Assembly (NCBI RefSeq): GCF_030295405.1
Contig: NZ_AP027080.1
Location: forward strand, 3,518,001 to 3,582,000
DNA length: 64,000 bases
Direction of reading: 5' to 3'
Source: Mesoterricola silvestris
GTDB lineage: Bacteria > Acidobacteriota > Holophagae > Holophagales > Holophagaceae
The translations under genes were made by a program, and so were the position numbers. Numbering within the stretch: position 1 is the first letter of the stretch; each line of letters opens with the position of its first letter. Shown here in pieces: positions 18,928-31,707 of the stretch. The notes below the pieces were generated by a model. The model worked only from the letters and a program-made list of their open reading frames with translations. It searched no databases and was not told where the DNA came from.

Positions 18928-19307
18928 CCAACCGCCGAGCCCGGCTACGGTTTCGTCCGGGTCCTAGGAGTCGCTTGCCGGGGGAACATCTCAACCGGCG
19001 GAGCGTCGCGGTCGAGGCGCGACGTCGATGATACGAGAGCTTTTATCCCCGAACATCCCCGTCCATCCCCTCCATCCCCGCCAAAAAATCGCAAGGATGG
19101 TTCGGCGCGATGGGGGTGTTCCACCCAGCGCCCCGACCCATCCCAGCGGGCCATTTGCCGGGGATGGACGGGGATGCGAGGGATGCTGGCCCATGGCTCT
19201 CCAGCCCCGCCACGGCGCCCTGAATCTGACCAATTTGGGTATAGGGTTGAGGGCGGGGCTATCTGCTGTTATCGGTAGTGATCGATTGGGTGGGTCGAAA
19301 AATCAAG
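18928..19307. other. Intergenic region with a GATGGACGGGGAT-type inverted repeat
   Basis: 380 bp between convergent genes. It contains a 7-bp stem near 19003-19026 (CGTCGCG with CGCGACG), which could end the WYL gene transcript, and then the 19055-19175 inverted repeat listed separately. No coding frame in it has a credible start and composition. Confidence 0.6.
19055..19175. repeat. Interspersed inverted repeat, family B copy 1
   Basis: ATCCCCGTCCATCCCC (19055-19070) is exactly complementary to GGGGATGGACGGGGAT (19160-19175), with weaker pairing outward and short palindromes between the arms. The arms are runs of CATCCC-like units. The same style of repeat, built from CATCC-type units, recurs at 22514-22662. 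Confidence 0.75.
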
Positions 19308-19844
19308 CTAACGGAGCCAGCCGCCCGTCACCCGCCGGAAGGCCTTCTCCCTCCGGACCATGGGGCGGAAGCCGGAGCAGACGGCGGGGCCGGCGGCTTC
19401 GGGGCAGGCGAGGCAGGCCTGGCGGTTGGGGCCCCGGTGGCGGTAGTGCATCCAGAAAGCCCCCAGGGCCCCGGTCGCCAGGAGGGCCACGGCCCAGCCG
19501 GCAGGGCCGGAACGCAGGCCCTGGGTCACCAGGAAGGTCCCCAGGGCGGCGGGCAGGAAACGGGACAAACCTTTGCCCGGCCGCCAACGGGTCAAAACCG
19601 CCAGCCCGGCCGCCCACACCGCCAGCAGGGCCCAGGACAGGCCCGGGGGCGCCGCCAGCCCCGCCCCGGCGCCGGCCAACCCTCCCGTGGCCGCCAGCAG
19701 GCAGCCCTTGCAGATGCGTATGCGCCCCATCGCCACCACCTCGCCCCGGTAGGCGGCGCACAGGGGGTGGTGGGCGTAGCGATGGAACCGGTGGGCGCGG
19801 CGGCTGAACCGGTCGATGCGGCGGGCCAGGTCCCGGGGGATCAC
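19308..19844 (-). CDS. Membrane protein with two cysteine clusters (unrecognised)
   Basis: 178 residues. A basic His/Arg-rich N-terminus (RRAHRFHRYAHH) carries Cys29 and C45xxC48. Three or so hydrophobic segments (about 50-85, 97-110, 116-133) follow, then a C-terminal segment with C144xxC147 and Cys156 (CLACPE, then CSGFRP). Six cysteines arranged 3+3 on either side of the membrane core suggest metal or disulfide sites on the same face. GTG at 19844 overlaps the YbjQ stop in GTGA, so it is translationally coupled. I do not recognise the family. Confidence 0.7.
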   Translation of the reverse strand: MIPRDLARRIDRFSRRAHRFHRYAHHPLCAAYRGEVVAMGRIRICKGCLLAATGGLAGAGAGLAAPPGLSWALLAVWAAGLAVLTRWRPGKGLSRFLPAALGTFLVTQGLRSGPAGWAVALLATGALGAFWMHYRHRGPNRQACLACPEAAGPAVCSGFRPMVRREKAFRRVTGGWLR

Positions 19845-20200
19845 GCTCCGGGCGGCTTGGGGCGCAGCACCACGGCGGTGCCGTAGGCCACGATCTCGTT
19901 GGTGTTCTGCATGAGGTCCCCGGAATCGAAGCGGAAGCCCAGGATGGCGTTGGCGCCCATCTGCCGCGAGTGGAGCTCCAGGCGGTTCATGGCCTCGTTG
20001 CGGGATTCCCCGGCCAGTTCCGTGAGCATGGTGATCTCCCCGCCGAACACCTGCTGGCAGCCCGCGCAGGCGGTGCCGACGATGCTGCGGGAGCGCACGG
20101 TGATCCCCCAGCAGGGACCGATGATGCGCTCGATCTCCGTGCCGGGGGGCGGCTCGAAGGTGGTGAGGATGGGCATCTGGTGGAGGGTGATGGTGGACAT
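19841..20200 (-). CDS. YbjQ/UPF0145 family protein
   Basis: A 119-residue protein of the YbjQ family (UPF0145), a small pentameric fold described as putatively heavy-metal binding, with no settled role. MPILTTFEPPPGTEI, VRSRSIVGTACAG, ESRNEAMNRL, MGANAILGFRFDSG and EIVAYGTAVVL follow the family pattern in order. An extra Cys pair (CAGC, about 45-48) and Cys30 are visible. The ATG at 20200 overlaps the upstream TGA (TGATG), and the stop overlaps the downstream GTG, placing it in the middle of a coupled three-gene operon. Confidence 0.88.
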   Translation of the reverse strand: MSTITLHQMPILTTFEPPPGTEIERIIGPCWGITVRSRSIVGTACAGCQQVFGGEITMLTELAGESRNEAMNRLELHSRQMGANAILGFRFDSGDLMQNTNEIVAYGTAVVLRPKPPGA

Positions 20201-20946
20201 CAGCGGGCTCCCAGGACCGGCAGGGCGATCATCAGCAGCGCCGACACCGCGACGCAGAGGGCGGCCCCGGACACCTTCAGGCGCATGGTGTGCCTCGCCG
20301 CGAGGAAGAGGATGAAGAGGGAGGCGAAGGTGAAGAGGTCCATGGTGTTGAAGAAGGCGTGCAGCTTCACGCTGTCCGGGGCCAGGTAGAAGCCCAGGGA
20401 CGTGGGGGAGAGGGCGTCGGGCTTGGCGCCGCCGATGTTCTTGAGGGCGCAGATGATGCCCAGGAGGACGAACTTGGGGGTGGCCACCAGGCCGGAGACC
20501 ACCGTGGCCGAGAAGGCCTGCCGGTAGCTGGGCTTGCGCCCCTCGGCGGTCCAGGAGCTGATGACCCAGTACACCAGGGCCATGACCAGGCTGACGATGG
20601 CCAGGCCCAGCAGCCCGCCCAGCACGCTGAAGGGGAGGATCATCTTCCCCTGCATGGCGATGATATTGTCGATGGATTCGGCGGGGATCTTGGGATTGGC
20701 CTCCATCATGGGCCGGAGCATGGCGTCCACGTCCACCTTGCGGGCCCACAGGACCGACACGACGGTATTGAGGACCGTCATGAGCACCAGGGCCCCGCCC
20801 CACACGGGCGTGGCCTCCAGGCGCTTGAACAGCGCCTCGGGCTCCGTGAACACCGCCACCACCTGTTCCAGGAGGGTGGGCGCCTTCGCGACCGGAGCGA
20901 CGGGCACGTTGCCGTACAGGCTTTCGGGAGGGGTGGATTCATTCAT
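20200..20946 (-). CDS. YIP1-family integral membrane protein
   Basis: 248 residues. A cytosolic Pro/Ala-rich N-terminus is followed by LLEQVVAVFTEPEALFKRL, the amphipathic segment typical of bacterial YIP1-domain proteins, then five hydrophobic helices (about 48-66, 103-130, 143-165, 190-212 and 220-245). Eukaryotic YIP1 proteins act in vesicle traffic; the bacterial members have no assigned role. It is the first gene of the YIP1 - YbjQ - Cys-rich membrane protein operon, all with 1- or 4-base overlaps. Confidence 0.78.
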   Translation of the reverse strand: MNESTPPESLYGNVPVAPVAKAPTLLEQVVAVFTEPEALFKRLEATPVWGGALVLMTVLNTVVSVLWARKVDVDAMLRPMMEANPKIPAESIDNIIAMQGKMILPFSVLGGLLGLAIVSLVMALVYWVISSWTAEGRKPSYRQAFSATVVSGLVATPKFVLLGIICALKNIGGAKPDALSPTSLGFYLAPDSVKLHAFFNTMDLFTFASLFILFLAARHTMRLKVSGAALCVAVSALLMIALPVLGAR

Positions 20947-21063
20947 GGAGGCCTCGCAGGGGTTTTGGAAATTTTCGCAGCATCCGCCCCGCTTTCAATG
21001 TCAAATTCCCCCGCGGAACGATGGCCACGCTCGGCGCACACAACGGGGAACGGAGACGCGCGC

Positions 21064-23633: not shown

Positions 23634-26600
23634 TCAGGGTGCCACCGGGGTGGCGGGGCCGTTGGTAATCACGATGTCCCAGGCGTAGTTGAAGGGGATC
23701 TTGTAGGCGTAGCTGAGGTCCGAATCATCGCTGGCCTTGATCTTGACGTTGCCGGTGGCCGTCTTGATGGCCTCGATCCACTCCGTGCGGTTCAGGGCGC
23801 GGGGGGCCAGCTTGCCGGCGACGTTGTTGGCCAGGATCGCCTTGAGGGCAAAGACCCGCAGGGTGGCGCTGGTGCCGGCGGCGGGCCGGAGCTCGAAGGG
23901 CACGTCGAACCAGCAGTAGCCGGGGGCGACGGTGGTCATGAGGGTGGTCTTGGCCACCGGATCCGTGTAGATCAGGCCGCTGGTCATGGGGACCCGGGCG
24001 TCGGTGAGGATCGGCAGGGTGTCGGGGTTCGGGTTGGTGGTGCCGGGGAAGACCGGGTAGCCGCTGGAGGGGTCGCTGACGTTCGTCTGGGCCGGGAAAC
24101 TGCCGGGCAGCATGAAGTGCTGGGTCGCGCCATTGGCCTCGAGTTCCACCACCCAGAAATCCGGCGCCACGGGGGCCCCGAGGCCGTCGGTGGTGGCATT
24201 GAACCAGGTGACCCGGTAGCCGCCGAGGACGGGGGTGTCCGTGGGGAGCGGGTTGGGGTAGGTGAGACTGCCGTCCGCTTCCCGGTGGCGCTTGTCGACC
24301 ATGGTGTCCTGGGGCGGGAGGAAGCCCAAGCGGGCCGTGGCATTGCCCGCGACGGCGGCGGTGAGGTTGGTGGGCGGCTGGAGGCTTGCCCCGTCCGCCA
24401 GCCAGGTGCGGGCGATGGTGCCCCCCGAAACGCTGTTGTAGAAGGGCGTGAAGGCGGTCCAGAAGAACCGGCCGACGCCGTTGGGGCTGGGCGTCCCGCC
24501 GTTCTCCGCCGCGGGGAAGGAGGCGTCGAAGCTGCCCTGGCCCGTGGCATTGAGGTCGAAGGCGCTGTTGCGGGGGGTGATGCCCGTGTGCCGGGGCCAG
24601 GTGGTGGCCGAGGTGTAGCGCAGGCCGGCGAAATTCCCCAGGTTCCCGTTCATGGAATCCACCCAGCTGAGGGTGGCGGCGTTCAGGGTGACCGGCCACT
24701 GCCAGACCCGGGACCAGAGGTATTCGGAGTAGCTGAAGACGCTCCGGATGCTGTTCAGGCCGCGGGTGAGGGGCGCGGCCACCTGCCGGTTGACGTCGTT
24801 GGGGTCGTAGGGGATGGACAGGCCGGTGAGGCCACCGGAGAAGGCGGTGCTGCCCTGGGGGTCGTACACCGCGGACTGGAAGTAGGCGGGAACGGCCGAA
24901 TTCACGGGAGCGGGCGCCAGGAGCATGCTGTCCAGGCCCCAATTGGCGGCGTCCAGGTCGTAGGGATCCGTGGATGCCCCGGGAGCGCGGAAGGCCTGGA
25001 ATTCCGAAGCCTTGTAGGTGTCCGAGTTCTTCGAGTCCGGAGTGTAGGCTTTGTAATCGAGGTTGATGCCCAGGTTGGCGGAGGTTCCAGCCGTGCCCGG
25101 CGTCTCGGCGGTCGGGATCGTCTTGAGCATGAGGGGCCATTCCGCGAAGGTCTGGAAGGCCGAGATGCCCGCGAAGGTGCCCACGGCGTTGTTGGGTTCC
25201 TCCCAGAGGGGCGTGACGAACGGAACGGAGGGGCGGAACAGCCAGCGGTCCGTCAGGTTCCCGCCGATCAGGGCCGTGGTGCCCTGCAGCTTGCGCATGG
25301 CGGCCTGGGCGGTCTCGGCCGCGAAGCCCTGGGCGGTGACGATGTTCAGGACCGGGTTCCAGGGGGCGGCGGGGGCGGCGGGGTTCTTGAAGCCGAAGGA
25401 GGAGACCGTCGCGTTGTCATCCAGGGTGGTGCCCAGGGTCGGATCCATGAACCCGCCGGTGGGCGCGTTGGGAATGCGCATGAAATAGGACCGGGAATCG
25501 GGAATGGCCGACGACCAGGAGGGAATGGCCAGCCAGAAGGGCAGGTCCGAGCGCACCGGCAGGGTGATGGTGGCCTTGATGCCCTGGGCATCGGCCACCG
25601 CGTAGCTGTAGGTGATGCCGTCCTGGAAGACCTGGATCTGGGCGCCGAGGCCGTTGGCGGCCGTGGTCACCATGGGCAGGGGCGTGACCGCCTGGCCCGT
25701 GTCGTCCTTGATCTGCCGGTAGAGGAAGTTCAGGGTGAACTGCTGGGTGTTGATGCCGTCCACCACCACCCACATCTGGGTCGTCTTGGGCACCACGAGG
25801 CTGGCGCGGCCGGATTTCACGCAGGAGCTGTTCTGGGCGTCCGTGTCGTCCGTGACCGTGAGGTTCACGCGGTAGGCGATGGTCTTGCCGGCCTCGCCGG
25901 GGAAGGAGACCTCGCCGGGATCGGCGGAGGCGCTGGCGTTGGGCACGCCGCCGGGGAAGGTCCAGGCGTAGGTGAGGGTGCCCCCGGAGGTGGGAAGGAC
26001 GCCGGTGCCCTTGAAGTGCAGCTTCCCGCCCGCGGGGATGTAGACGATGTAGGAATCGGTGCTGTTGGCGGGACGGGGAACGACCGGAACGCCCTGGCCC
26101 CCGTCGAGGATGGTCAGGGGAGCGGGAGGCTGGGTGCCCGAGGCCTGGGGGGAGGTGATGGCGGCCGTGGGCAGCGCGTTGAGGGTCACGGCCACGGTGA
26201 AGGACACCTGGGTGGCGGTGGCGTTGGAGCTGCGGTTGTCGGTGCCGTTGACGGTGACCGTGGCGGTGCCCGCGTAGCTGTCGGGGTACACGTGGGTCAG
26301 GGTCACGGTGGAGCCCGCCAGGGTGCTGGTGGTGGTGGTGCCGGTGACGACCTGCGGCTGGCAGGGCGTATCGGGGCCGCCCCAGTTCACGGTGTAGGTG
26401 ACGGGGTCGTCGTCCTGGTCGGAGACGGTGAACACGAGCTTGACGGCCTTGGAGGTGAGGGCCGACGTGGTGGGGGCCGCCGGGGTGGTGATGGTGAAGG
26501 CGGGGGTGTGGTTCGCGCCCAGGGTCTTGATGGTCATGGCCGGACCGCCGGCGGCGACGCCGACGATGCCCAGGCTGTCGGTGGCGTAGGCGGTGGGGGT

Positions 26601-28526
26601 GGTGGTGCGCGTCCCGGTGGCCGCGGCGCCCGTGTACTGGACGGTGGCGGTGTAGGCGCCTCCCCCGTTGCTGACGACGCTCACCACGGTCGCGGCGCTA
26701 TCGTTGGGAAGGAAGGTGATGAGGTTGGCGGGGATGGGATCCGTCGCGCCGCCGGCGCCGGCCCGGGGATTGGTCACGGTGAAGGTGAAGGCCTGGGTGA
26801 CCGTTCCGTTCAGGTCCACGTTCAGGGTGGTGGCGCCGGGGGCCGTGAAGACCACCACCGGCAGCGGGGTGGTCACCACCTGGAAGGCCACGGAGGGGCT
26901 GAAGTCGCCCACGCCGCCGTTGGCGTCGATGGCCTGGACCCGCACGGGGATGGTGCCGGTGACGGAGGTGGGGAAAGTGTGGTTGACGGTGGTGGTGCGG
27001 GTGACGCCGGTGGGGCTGGCGTCGGGGGCCGAGGTCACGGCCACGCCGTCCCCGAAATCCCACACGAACTGCTTGATGGTGTCCGTCGCGTCGGGATCGG
27101 TCGCCGTGGCGGTGAAGGCGTAGCTCTTGTTCTGGAGCAGGCCCGTGGCGGCGGGGGTGGTGATCTGGGACACGGGGGGCAGGTTGGCCAGGACCTTGAC
27201 GGGAATGTCGACCTTGACGACGCCGCCCTTGGTGTCGTCGGCGGTGACGTAGGCGTTGGAGACGCCCATGGCGGTCCAGGTGTGGGTCACGGTGGTCCCG
27301 GTGACCTTGGGCGTGCCGTCACCGAAGTCCCAGGTGATCGTCGAGGCGTCGAGGTTGGGGTCGGTGACGCCGGCGGTGAAGGTGATGGGCTGGTAGGCGT
27401 AGGGATCGCCCGCCGGGTTCTGGGTGTAGGCGAGCACGGGCGGCGCGTTGGCCAGGATGCTGATGACAAGGGAGATGGACTTGGTTCCGCCGGGAATGCC
27501 GTTGGTGGCCGTGAAGGTCATGGTGTAGATGCCCGCGGCCGCGTAGGTGTGGGTCTGGGTCAGGGCGGTGGTGCTGGCCACGTCGCCCACCCCGCCGGCC
27601 TCGCCGAAGCTCCAGGAATAGGTGAGGGGGAGGCTCTGGGGATCCGTGGCGGTGGCGGTGAAGGTGATGGGGACGTTCTGCCAGGTGGAGTTGGCGGCCC
27701 CCGGGACGGGGATCGTCGGGGCGGCGGCCACGGAGATGACCGGGGGATTCGCCGCGCTGAGCGTCGTGTTGACGGTCATGGCGGGGAACGTCGAGAGATC
27801 GCTCAGGAGCGCGCCGCTGGTGTCCACGACGGAGAGGGTCGGCTGGAAGGTGCGGGAGTCGGTGGCGGCGGCCGCCGGGAAGGAGACGGCGACGGTCCAT
27901 TCGTTGGTGGTCCCCGGCTTGGCGGTGACGGGCCCGATGGAGCCCCCGGCGAGGGTGTCGTTGGACTTGAAGGTGATGCCGGCGGCGTTGTAGGTGAGTC
28001 CGCTGGCGGGATCCAGATCGATCATGAAATCGAAGGTGTAGGCGACGGTGCTGCCCACCTGGGTGGACAGGAGCGTGGCCGCCGCGGGCGCCACCTGGGT
28101 GACCGTGAAGGGATTCGAGGCCTGGGCCACGGCGAAGGTGGTGCTCGCGGCCGTGCCGGCCAGTCCGTGGCTGTCCGTGGGCGTCACGGTCACGGCCAGG
28201 GCCGCGGAGGCCACGCGGAACGCGTGCTGCACGGTGAAGGGGGCCGTGGTCACCGTCTGGATCGGGGAGCCGTCCCCGAAGTTCCAGGCGCAGCTGGCCA
28301 CGGTGTCGCCGAGGTCGGGATCCGTGGTGGTGGTGGTGAACGTGTAGATTTTGTATTCAACCAGGGAGTTGGTGTTGGCATTGACCACCGGGGCCGTGGC
28401 GGCCGGCGGCGCGTTGACGGCGACCTTGTTGTTGGGGCTGTTCCCCCCTCCGCCACCGCATGCGCAAAGCAGCGCCAAGGATAGGGCAGAAAGGATGATC
28501 CCGGAGTTGCGCAGTGTGAATCTCAT
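23634..28526 (-). CDS. Giant PKD-repeat lipoprotein
   Basis: 1630 residues. A signal peptide ends in LALLCAC, with Cys23 the likely lipidated residue, followed by a Gly-rich linker. At least four clear PKD-like beta-sandwich repeats carry the WNFGDG type motif (about residues 82, 310, 400 and 490), with two divergent ones near 715 (VNWGGPD) and 855 (AWTFPGG). Ig-like spacers lie between them. The final 700 residues are a different, unrecognised region. PKD arrays mediate surface adhesion or polymer binding. The frame is open 38 codons upstream, but ATG at 28526 has GAAGGGG before it and gives the lipoprotein signal. A short paralog lies just upstream. Confidence 0.85.
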   Translation of the reverse strand: MRFTLRNSGIILSALSLALLCACGGGGGNSPNNKVAVNAPPAATAPVVNANTNSLVEYKIYTFTTTTTDPDLGDTVASCAWNFGDGSPIQTVTTAPFTVQHAFRVASAALAVTVTPTDSHGLAGTAASTTFAVAQASNPFTVTQVAPAAATLLSTQVGSTVAYTFDFMIDLDPASGLTYNAAGITFKSNDTLAGGSIGPVTAKPGTTNEWTVAVSFPAAAATDSRTFQPTLSVVDTSGALLSDLSTFPAMTVNTTLSAANPPVISVAAAPTIPVPGAANSTWQNVPITFTATATDPQSLPLTYSWSFGEAGGVGDVASTTALTQTHTYAAAGIYTMTFTATNGIPGGTKSISLVISILANAPPVLAYTQNPAGDPYAYQPITFTAGVTDPNLDASTITWDFGDGTPKVTGTTVTHTWTAMGVSNAYVTADDTKGGVVKVDIPVKVLANLPPVSQITTPAATGLLQNKSYAFTATATDPDATDTIKQFVWDFGDGVAVTSAPDASPTGVTRTTTVNHTFPTSVTGTIPVRVQAIDANGGVGDFSPSVAFQVVTTPLPVVVFTAPGATTLNVDLNGTVTQAFTFTVTNPRAGAGGATDPIPANLITFLPNDSAATVVSVVSNGGGAYTATVQYTGAAATGTRTTTPTAYATDSLGIVGVAAGGPAMTIKTLGANHTPAFTITTPAAPTTSALTSKAVKLVFTVSDQDDDPVTYTVNWGGPDTPCQPQVVTGTTTTSTLAGSTVTLTHVYPDSYAGTATVTVNGTDNRSSNATATQVSFTVAVTLNALPTAAITSPQASGTQPPAPLTILDGGQGVPVVPRPANSTDSYIVYIPAGGKLHFKGTGVLPTSGGTLTYAWTFPGGVPNASASADPGEVSFPGEAGKTIAYRVNLTVTDDTDAQNSSCVKSGRASLVVPKTTQMWVVVDGINTQQFTLNFLYRQIKDDTGQAVTPLPMVTTAANGLGAQIQVFQDGITYSYAVADAQGIKATITLPVRSDLPFWLAIPSWSSAIPDSRSYFMRIPNAPTGGFMDPTLGTTLDDNATVSSFGFKNPAAPAAPWNPVLNIVTAQGFAAETAQAAMRKLQGTTALIGGNLTDRWLFRPSVPFVTPLWEEPNNAVGTFAGISAFQTFAEWPLMLKTIPTAETPGTAGTSANLGINLDYKAYTPDSKNSDTYKASEFQAFRAPGASTDPYDLDAANWGLDSMLLAPAPVNSAVPAYFQSAVYDPQGSTAFSGGLTGLSIPYDPNDVNRQVAAPLTRGLNSIRSVFSYSEYLWSRVWQWPVTLNAATLSWVDSMNGNLGNFAGLRYTSATTWPRHTGITPRNSAFDLNATGQGSFDASFPAAENGGTPSPNGVGRFFWTAFTPFYNSVSGGTIARTWLADGASLQPPTNLTAAVAGNATARLGFLPPQDTMVDKRHREADGSLTYPNPLPTDTPVLGGYRVTWFNATTDGLGAPVAPDFWVVELEANGATQHFMLPGSFPAQTNVSDPSSGYPVFPGTTNPNPDTLPILTDARVPMTSGLIYTDPVAKTTLMTTVAPGYCWFDVPFELRPAAGTSATLRVFALKAILANNVAGKLAPRALNRTEWIEAIKTATGNVKIKASDDSDLSYAYKIPFNYAWDIVITNGPATPVAP

Positions 28527-28675
28527 GGATGCCCCTTCGCATTGAAGCCGGAGTAAAAACCAGCAAATACCCAAATTGGTACAAAAAGATCGGGCGTAAT
28601 GATGGCTCCGATCATACAAGCAACCCCCGCCAGGGGCCATTTATTTCCGGAATGGTATGAAAATAACCGCCGCCC

Positions 28676-29449
28676 TCAGGGGCGGGCCACGGTCTGGATG
28701 GTCAGGGTGGGGAAGACCGCCGGCACGCTCTGGATGTTCAGGCTGTCCTTCACCTTCAGGGTGGGTGTGACGGAATAGGCCGTGCCGGCGCCGCCCGAGG
28801 CCGGGTACACCGCGGACACGGTCCAGGCCCCGCCGCCGTCCAGGGTGCCCATGACCTTGACGCCGGGGTTGGCCGTGGCCAGGGGGCTGCCCGGGACGAG
28901 GGTGAAGTTCTCGTTGGGCACCGTGCCCATGCCGTCGTAGGTGACCCGGAACTGGAAGTCCACCGTGACGCTGGCGCCCTGGGGCACCTGGAGGGTGGAC
29001 GGGGCCGCCGGCGCGACGGGAAGGACCAGGAAGGGATTGGCGGCCGCCGATACCGTGAAGGTGGCGGAGGAGGCGGGGCCGTTCAACCCGTGGGTGTCCC
29101 GGGCGGTGACCGTCACCTTCACCGGGGCGCCCGCGGCCAGGAAGGCGTGCTGCACCGAGAAGGGCGGCGCGGTGACGGCCTCCGCCGGCGACCCGTCCCC
29201 GAAGTCCCAGACGCAGCTCACCACCCGGTCGTACAGGTCCGGATCCGTCGCGCCCGTGGTGAAGAGATACGTTTTGTATTGAATAAGGTTGGCATCAGCC
29301 GGATTGGCCATCGGCGCGGTCACTGCGGGCGGCGAGTTGATGGCGAGCCGTTCCCGGGGGCTGTTCCAGCCCCCCATGGTGCAGCCGCACAGCAGAACCG
29401 GCACCAGGCCTGGGAGGAGGGTCCAGGGGGAGCGCAGCATGGGTCTCAT
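28676..29449 (-). CDS. Short PKD-domain lipoprotein, paralog of the downstream giant
   Basis: 257 residues with a signal peptide ending VLLCGC, then a Pro/Asn linker, one PKD motif (VWDFGDGSP) and an Ig-like domain. Residue by residue it follows the first ~250 residues of the next gene: AINSPPAVTAP against AVNAPPAATAP, FTVQHAF against FSVQHAF, HGLNGPASSATF against HGLAGTAASTTF. Then it stops, where the giant continues for 1380 more residues. ATG at 29449 is preferred over 29455 because GAAGGG then has normal spacing, matching the paralog. It is probably a tandem duplication with later truncation or extension. Confidence 0.75.
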   Translation of the reverse strand: MRPMLRSPWTLLPGLVPVLLCGCTMGGWNSPRERLAINSPPAVTAPMANPADANLIQYKTYLFTTGATDPDLYDRVVSCVWDFGDGSPAEAVTAPPFSVQHAFLAAGAPVKVTVTARDTHGLNGPASSATFTVSAAANPFLVLPVAPAAPSTLQVPQGASVTVDFQFRVTYDGMGTVPNENFTLVPGSPLATANPGVKVMGTLDGGGAWTVSAVYPASGGAGTAYSVTPTLKVKDSLNIQSVPAVFPTLTIQTVARP

Positions 29450-29529: not shown

Positions 29530-30327
29530 TCACCCCTGGACCCACTGGACCGTCATGCCCAGGAGCCGGTCCACCGCCGCGCGGCCCCGGGGGCCGGGAT
29601 CCACGGTGAAATCGTTCACCCAGGCCCGCACGTAGCGCCCGATCATCTCCGTGTCCATGCCCCGGCCGAAGGACTGGGAATAGGCCACGGACTCGTCGTG
29701 GCGCTCCCGCGCCAGTTCCACGCTGCGCCGCATGAGGCTGGCGAAGCGGGTCTTGATCTCCTCCGGCAGATCCCGGCGGATGGCGTTGCCGCCCATGGGC
29801 AGGGGCAGGCCGCAGTCGGCCTTCCACCAGGCGCCCAGGTCCTCCACCAGGTGCAGGCCCCGGTCCCGGAACATGAGCTGGCTTTCGTGGATGAGGAGGC
29901 CCGCCTCGTACCGGCCCTCCTCGACGGATTCCATGATCCGGTCGAAGGGCACCAGTTCCACCTTCAGGCCCGGCATCCACCGGCGCAGGGCCAGGTAGGC
30001 GCTGGTGCGAAGCCCCGGGATGGCCACGGTGACCCCGGCCAGCTCCGCGGGGGCCATGGGTTTGCGGGAGATCACCACGGGACCGGTCCCCTCCTGGATG
30101 CTGGAGCCGGCGGTGAGCAGCTGGTACGTGCCGGCCAGTTCCGGGTAGGCCCCGAAGCTGATGGCGGTCACTTCGTACGGCGCCCCCAGGGCCTCGGCGT
30201 TGAGGGTCTCGATGTCCTTGCGCACGAAGCGGAAGTCGAAGCCCTCGGTGTCCATCCAGCCCAGGGCCAGGGGGGCCATCATGTAGGCGTCGTCGGAATC
30301 GGGGCTGTGGGCGATGGTGAAGGGCAT
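29530..30327 (-). CDS. mqnD: MqnA/MqnD-family protein, probable 1,4-dihydroxy-6-naphthoate synthase
   Basis: A 265-residue periplasmic-binding-protein-fold enzyme without a signal peptide. IAHSPDSDDAYMMAPLALG is the family start, with TAISFGAYPELAG and IPGLRTSAYLALRRW in the expected places and LLIHESQLMFRDRGLHLVEDLG in the second lobe. MqnD converts cyclic dehypoxanthine futalosine to dihydroxynaphthoate in the futalosine route to menaquinone, which would imply an anaerobic quinone pool. ATG at 30327 has GGAG 7 bases upstream. mqnA, mqnC and mqnE are not nearby, so a different specificity within the family remains possible. Confidence 0.75.
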   Translation of the reverse strand: MPFTIAHSPDSDDAYMMAPLALGWMDTEGFDFRFVRKDIETLNAEALGAPYEVTAISFGAYPELAGTYQLLTAGSSIQEGTGPVVISRKPMAPAELAGVTVAIPGLRTSAYLALRRWMPGLKVELVPFDRIMESVEEGRYEAGLLIHESQLMFRDRGLHLVEDLGAWWKADCGLPLPMGGNAIRRDLPEEIKTRFASLMRRSVELARERHDESVAYSQSFGRGMDTEMIGRYVRAWVNDFTVDPGPRGRAAVDRLLGMTVQWVQG

Positions 30328-30403
30328 CAACGGACTCCGGGAAGGACCGCCCGGAACGGGTCGGCCGATTGCATCGTATCGGGAAACCGCCGGGCGGGGC
30401 CAC

Positions 30404-30904
30404 TCAGCCCCGGGAGCAGACGCTCAGCTTCTCCTTCACCCGCTCCACCGCCTTCACCGCCAGGGCGTAGCCGGGGTTCTCCAGCACCGCGCTGCGGTAG
30501 TGGTCCAGGGCCAGCTCCAGCTTGTCCAGGGCCTCGTACACCCGGCCCAGGTTGTAGTGGGGGTAGCAGTAGCTCTCGTAGCGCTTGGCCTTGAGAGCCA
30601 TGTGGAGCCAGGGGATGGTGTCCTCGTACTGGCCCAGTTCCAGGTAGTAGGCGCCGATGTCGTTGTAGGGGTTGCCGTACTCCGGGTCCAGGTCGATGGC
30701 CCGGTGGCAGTCGGCGATGGCGGCGTCGAAGTCCTTCTGGAAGGACCGGGCCCATCCGCGGTAGGTGTAGGCCTCGGGCGTCCGGTGCAGCTCCAGGGAC
30801 TTGCTGTAGAGTTCGATGGCCCGGTCCACTTCGCCGCGCATGTGGTGCTGGTAGGCCTTGCTCACCAGTTCCATCGCCTCTTGCTTCTTGTCGTCGGTGC
30901 TCAT
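30404..30904 (-). CDS. TPR-repeat protein
   Basis: 166 residues with four tandem tetratricopeptide repeats and no signal peptide: AYQHHMRGEVDRAIELYSKS, AYTYRGWARSFQKDFDAAIA, PYNDIGAYYLELGQYEDTIP and PHYNLGRVYEALDKLELALD. It is a protein-protein adaptor with unknown partner. GAGG sits 6 bases before the ATG. It follows the TauE-like gene by 50 bp and precedes mqnD by 76 bp, all on one strand, so a three-gene transcript is plausible. Confidence 0.85.
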   Translation of the reverse strand: MSTDDKKQEAMELVSKAYQHHMRGEVDRAIELYSKSLELHRTPEAYTYRGWARSFQKDFDAAIADCHRAIDLDPEYGNPYNDIGAYYLELGQYEDTIPWLHMALKAKRYESYCYPHYNLGRVYEALDKLELALDHYRSAVLENPGYALAVKAVERVKEKLSVCSRG

Positions 30905-30954
30905 GGAGGGCCTCGAGGGAACCCCATCATAGGACAAATCCGGCAGATGGGAGC

Positions 30955-31707
30955 CTAAGCTTGGAGTCTTAAAAGGCTGACCGCCTGCCAAAGGATGTAC
31001 CCGCCCATGGCCCCCACCAGCACCCCGCCCACCCGGAGGAGCCCGGTGCGCCAGGACTGCCTGAGCCGGGTCGCGGCCAGGCCCAGGCCCAGGAGAATGG
31101 GCACGTTCCCCAGACCGAAGCAGACCATTCCCGCCGCCCCCATGCGCCAGGAGCCGGCGTCCAGGGCCTTGAGCAGCATCATGTACACCAGCCCGCAGGG
31201 GATGAAGCCCCAGGCCAGGCCCAGGAGGTAGGGCGCCCCGCCCCACTTGAGGCCCCGGGCCAGGAAGCCCTGGATGGGCCGGGGCATGGGGAATTCCATG
31301 AGGCTGTCGGCGCGCCGGCCCAGGGCCATGAACAGGCCCAGGAGCAGCATGAGGAACCCGATGCCCAGCTTGACCCACACCTGCCACGGCCAGGCCTGGG
31401 CGGCGATGAGGGCCTGGCCGTCGGGGCGGCAACAGGCGTGCATGTCCTGCACGGTCTGGAGCCGCGCGAATCCGCCCAGGAAGCCGATGGCGGCCCCCAG
31501 GAGCGCGTACGTGCTCACCCGACCCGCCTGGAACAGAAGGTGGCGGGGCCACATGCGCCCCCCCTGCCGGGCCTGGGCCAGGCCGAAGGAGGCCACGATG
31601 GGCCCGCACATCCCGGCGCAGTGCCCCACGGACCCCAGGAGCCCCGCGATCCACATGACCGCGAGCCAGGGCAGGGCGTGGGACTGGTTCAGCCAGGTCT
31701 CGAGCAC
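30955..31707 (-). CDS. TauE/SafE-like (DsbD_2) membrane protein
   Basis: 250 residues with six or so membrane helices. The signature GSVGHCAGMCGPIV lies in the first helix, and WGFIPCGLVYMMLL in the fourth mirrors it, the conserved paired Cys/Pro helix ends of the sulfite-exporter/urease-accessory/DsbD-like group. Members near cytochrome oxidase genes are implicated in metal or thiol handling for haem-copper assembly; no such genes are adjacent here. It starts with GTG at 31707 behind AGAGGTG. Extra cysteines (HACCRPDG) sit in a loop. Confidence 0.8.
   Translation of the reverse strand: MLETWLNQSHALPWLAVMWIAGLLGSVGHCAGMCGPIVASFGLAQARQGGRMWPRHLLFQAGRVSTYALLGAAIGFLGGFARLQTVQDMHACCRPDGQALIAAQAWPWQVWVKLGIGFLMLLLGLFMALGRRADSLMEFPMPRPIQGFLARGLKWGGAPYLLGLAWGFIPCGLVYMMLLKALDAGSWRMGAAGMVCFGLGNVPILLGLGLAATRLRQSWRTGLLRVGGVLVGAMGGYILWQAVSLLRLQA

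Follow-up and report, generated by a model that had tools for sequence, protein, structure and literature searches.

A cysteine-bearing YbjQ subfamily protein and a six-cysteine membrane protein as a putative two-gene module in Mesoterricola silvestris and related bacteria

Analysis of a 64,000 nucleotide stretch of the genome of Mesoterricola silvestris (4.99 Mb, single contig), referred to here as the window, identified a gene for a YbjQ subfamily protein with added cysteines that is directly followed by a gene for a membrane protein with six conserved cysteines (designated M). Comparison with related genomes suggests that the two genes constitute a module that has been inherited, relocated and lost together. 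Their products probably work as a cysteine-dependent unit, in which a cytosolic YbjQ ring would dock at M; the partnership has good support from the sequences, and the chemistry would be that of a metal or of thiols. The locus was found to consist of the following features:

19308..19844, minus strand: M, a four-helix membrane protein of 178 aa with a GTG start; C29, C45xxC48, C144xxC147 and C156, with invariant H18, H21, H25 and H26
19841..20200, minus strand: YbjQ subfamily protein of 119 aa; C30 and C45xxC48
20200..20946, minus strand: YIP1 (YknW-like) membrane protein of 248 aa; a local, non-obligate neighbour
20971..20998, minus strand: promoter-like site before YIP1, TTGAAA-16-GAAAAT (consensus match only)
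19306..19330, minus strand: terminator-like stem with a T-run, immediately after M (consensus match only)

A preliminary description of the locus had reported three genes welded by TGATG and GTGA overlaps, and both were read at the junctions, with a one-base overlap between YIP1 and YbjQ (CGCTGATGTCC, TGATG) and a four-base overlap between YbjQ and M (GAGCGTGATCC, GTGA). Among the three genes, a promoter-like match was identified upstream of YIP1 only, with terminator-like matches directly after M (consensus matches in each case), and the YbjQ-M module is probably co-transcribed with YIP1 in the genus of the window. The cysteine order described for M (C, CxxC, membrane core, CxxC, C) corresponds exactly to C29, C45xxC48, a hydrophobic core, C144xxC147 and C156. 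The added CxxC of the YbjQ-like protein was likewise found, as C45 and C48; its third cysteine, C30, had been missing from that description.

The product of 19841-20200 was assigned to the YbjQ family (UPF0145, DUF74; PF01906, E 6.4e-27), its 94.6 bits lying above the cut-off of 23, and it shares sequence family, length and predicted fold with members of solved structure (PDB 1vr4, 1y2i, 2gtc, 3qkb). Solved members of the family are pentamers (PMC2954204, PMC4092069). No established function was found for YbjQ although structures have been solved, and the gene was present in 207 of 396 sampled genomes of the phylum. The structural model of the window protein is of low confidence (pLDDT 65); with this model, fold matches were obtained to 1y2i (Foldseek probability 1.00, E 4.8e-4) and 1vr4 (Z 7.8). 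In the model, C30 lies in the long strand, and C45-C48 are among the first residues of a helix.

Comparison with 62 other YbjQ proteins, from the same phylum and from relatives of a Riflebacteria MAG described below, showed that the window protein differs from these in its added C30 and C45xxC48 and in its dedicated membrane partner gene. C45 and C48 occurred in none of the 62, and a cysteine at position 30 in none of the 59 readable there. An M gene was not found in the flanks fetched around these 62 genes, weak tblastn matches to M near four of them proving to be noise on inspection. As no comparison protein exceeds 49% identity to the YbjQ of the window, those with the CxxC form a sharp subfamily.

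M, described earlier as an unrecognised membrane protein, could not be assigned to any known family: nothing in Pfam, NCBIfam, PHROGs, PADLOC or PDB matched it, and none of 13 members of its family that were searched had a Pfam match. In an alignment of 13 rows, 34 of 178 columns were invariant, including all six cysteines as well as H18, H21, H25 and H26. The probability of all six cysteines falling among the invariant columns of this alignment by chance is approximately 3e-5, a figure that ignores kinship. Two further orthologs outside the alignment also kept all six, so that these residues are invariant in 15 orthologs of M; neither this result nor the neighbourhood survey below refutes the preliminary description as far as YbjQ and M are concerned. 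The predicted structure of M (pLDDT 83.7, pTM 0.72) has a helical N-terminus, a beta-hairpin (36-45) running into C45xxC48, helices at 46-64, 71-86, 91-111 and 114-137, short helices around C144-C156 and a C-terminal helix, and hydropathy is consistent with the four predicted helices. Positive charge in the N-terminus, the middle loop (K91, R95) and the C-terminus of the model suggests that both ends are cytoplasmic. Comparison of the fold gave no significant PDB or viral match, which does not in itself prove a new fold. DUF2085 (PF09858) resembles M in having a CxxC immediately before a membrane helix, but was rejected as its family, as no profile similarity was seen (hhalign probability 0.3%, no Pfam match) and DUF2085 is without the C-terminal CxxC and C.

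YbjQ orthologs of at least 75% identity with all three cysteines were identified in 15 of 77 genomes of the family (probably Holophagaceae), and these cysteines are invariant among the M-paired orthologs. M was found directly behind YbjQ in all 15, with the contig of G049 stopping 22 residues into M. The order is YbjQ then M in every pair, with the genes mostly overlapping. CxxC and M coincide in 15 YbjQ genes of the family and are both absent in 12 (Fisher p 6e-8, ignoring kinship). The module is patchy and dispensable across the family. The same pair, with the same GTGA overlap and a YbjQ of 73% identity, was identified in the Riflebacteria MAG, and the survey of gene neighbourhoods accordingly carries the YbjQ-M part of the originally described group beyond the strain. 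M was not found in 142 searched relatives of this MAG, nor in the sampled genomes of the same phylum outside the family. With a GC content of 50% at the Riflebacteria locus against 58-69% at eight loci of the family, a misplaced contig from the family is not the obvious reading, and on these sequence data horizontal transfer of the pair involving the MAG is likely. Plasmid copies were also considered, and only ordinary YbjQ of less than 60% identity was found there, with no M. A defence or phage origin was rejected: PADLOC gave no match, PHROGs a single weak one (for YbjQ only), and viral contigs contained no relatives. As the contig scan for the pair used one query sequence and exact short patterns, distant relatives of M may exist beyond the groups searched. 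Gene calls in the relatives were made with a custom codon-model script and not a standard gene finder.

Natural losses within the family bear on the relationship of the two genes. G023 and G032 belong to the same genus, and in both the YbjQ gene lies behind an acyl-CoA-ligase-like gene. In G023 (L039:755-1108), M is absent, UbiA comes after YbjQ, and the CAGC of YbjQ has become VAGI with C30 kept; the branch of G023 in the YbjQ tree is about ten times as long as that of its sister G032 (0.150 vs 0.014). Given that C30 persists there without M, it may serve another role. This correlated loss of cysteines was seen in one lineage. In G055 (L040:190-352), behind the ligase gene lie the opening few codons of YbjQ (the start now being CTG), fused to the last approximately 30 codons of M, indicating that one deletion, of approximately 0.87 kb as measured on G018, removed both genes. 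Together, the sequences of G023 and G055 support a functional bond between YbjQ and M. As the CxxC is found only with M and is lost where M is lost, YbjQ and M very probably work as one cysteine-dependent membrane unit. A further difference was found in genus g7: between macB1 and an epimerase gene, G026 has YbjQ and M together with an extra gene, and G011 has 106 bases. The extra gene (L024:6230-6900, between macB1 and YbjQ) resembles an NlpC/YiiX-type peptidase by eye and is absent from G011 along with the pair.

The pair occupies several different loci, which argues that the linkage of YbjQ and M is more than inherited gene order. It was located behind an AMP-binding ligase in G018, G022, G032, G046 and G049, UbiA being the next gene in G022 and G046. 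In G047 and G053 it closes what looks by eye like a cbb3 oxidase operon, immediately after the gene for a P-type ATPase that carries a heavy-metal domain. Pfam was run on the ATPase of G047 and on the ligase and UbiA of G046. Assignment to a copper, respiratory or quinone pathway from these neighbours was considered and set aside, since the surroundings of the pair vary from genus to genus and do not point to a single pathway.

The third gene of the locus (20200-20946) encodes a member of the known YIP1 family (PF04893, E 2.9e-10; 40.7 bits, above the cut-off of 28.6), which scored 62.7 bits against the YknW model NF052650, below the equivalog cut-off of 110. In Bacillus, YknW is a Yip1-family protein that modulates assembly of the YknWXYZ pump (PMC4887032). 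The relatives of the window YIP1 in most other genera examined are similarly placed beside macA and macB, being adjacent to macA1 and macB1 in g4 (five of six genomes read), g7, g10 and g11, with G018 and G013 as exceptions. Operons resembling that of the YknWXYZ pump, with YIP1 and one or two consecutive macA-macB pairs, were seen at L041:6984-12849, L090, L092 and L084. The window locus differs in being without macA1 and macB1, the best macA1 matches in its genus belonging to a second pair, macA2/macB2, elsewhere; YbjQ and M lie in their place. The genus of the window has lost this macAB pair, and its module occupies the position after the YknW-like YIP1 gene at which other genera carry genes for a MacAB-type pump. 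YIP1 is here neighboured by a divergent class-III aminotransferase, 55% identical to a Geothrix-like one. An MqnD-like menaquinone gene was also noted by eye in the window, close to a sulfite-exporter-like gene (29530-31707), and the MqnD-like gene is directly upstream of YIP1 in G001. A 254-aa lipoprotein-like ORF (28676-29440) starts like the PKD-repeat protein at 23634-28640 and is possibly a truncated duplicate.

Tight coupling of the three genes had been taken to imply one complex. The comparison supports a conserved and tightly coupled unit of YbjQ and M, but not YIP1 as an obligate third member, since YIP1 adjoins the pair only in the four pair-bearing genomes of the window's genus. An obligate complex of all three proteins would agree with the gene overlaps in the window, with the adjacency of YIP1 in each of those four genomes and the absence of all three genes from G002 and G003, and with genus g7, where in G026 the pair follows macB1 down the same YIP1-macA-macB operon (as it probably does in G019, where the overlap of two contig ends lies inside macB1 and contains a single mismatch). 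YIP1 and the pair are, however, found at one locus in only two genera, the pair being apart from YIP1 in three other genera and in the Riflebacteria MAG, and most genomes with YIP1 are without the pair. Such a complex is therefore very improbable, and YIP1 was rejected as a core member as a general rule; outside the genus of the window it would not be required for the module.

The favoured arrangement of YbjQ and M is one in which M would be anchored in the inner membrane through its four helices, its two Cys/His-rich ends both facing the cytoplasm, and cytosolic YbjQ, by analogy with its solved relatives a pentameric ring, would dock on the cytoplasmic Cys/His site of M. The CxxC of YbjQ with the six cysteines and four histidines of M could then hold a soft metal ion or exchange thiols, with the ring delivering to, or sensing through, M. 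Metal sensing, one of two roles raised in the preliminary description, may be a role of the module; nothing found in the analysis points to the other, membrane remodelling. More specifically, and only tentatively, the module may be a membrane-docked thiol device, in which the added CxxC of the ring would hand on a metal ion, a chalcogen or electrons, the recipient being a dedicated membrane receptor with six cysteines that represents a new family.

The cysteines of M might instead hold only structural zinc, with the CxxC of YbjQ in a zinc-stabilised contact without transfer, redox chemistry or sensing, and with some other part of the module, such as the membrane helices, responsible for its activity. 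The position of C45xxC48 after a beta-hairpin is zinc-knuckle-like, and the invariance of all cysteines is as for structural ligands; this reading, which leaves the function of the module unexplained by itself, is considered unlikely. It appears far less likely still that the YbjQ ring is a chalcogen carrier that binds selenium or sulfur via the added thiols, with M as its membrane partner. That proposal draws on the archaeal selenium-binding protein of Methanococcus vannielii (2jz7), matched by the YbjQ model (Z 5.6; Foldseek E 0.39). The fold match is weak, however, with RcsF and IgaA scoring equally. We know of no membrane partner for the Methanococcus protein. Its general fold is of the YbjQ type and it is pentameric, a likeness already noted in the literature (PMC4092069), and it has been proposed as a selenium carrier (PMC2933860).

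While YbjQ and YIP1 are known families, M represents a protein family recognised by none of the libraries searched, and no description of M, or of YbjQ proteins with such cysteines and a partner in the membrane, was found in the open-access papers searched. The presence of the added cysteines in this YbjQ subfamily follows that of a single membrane gene, which provides a concrete binding partner and residues to mutate. If true, the reading of the module as a thiol device would assign a defined partner to YbjQ, an orphan family.
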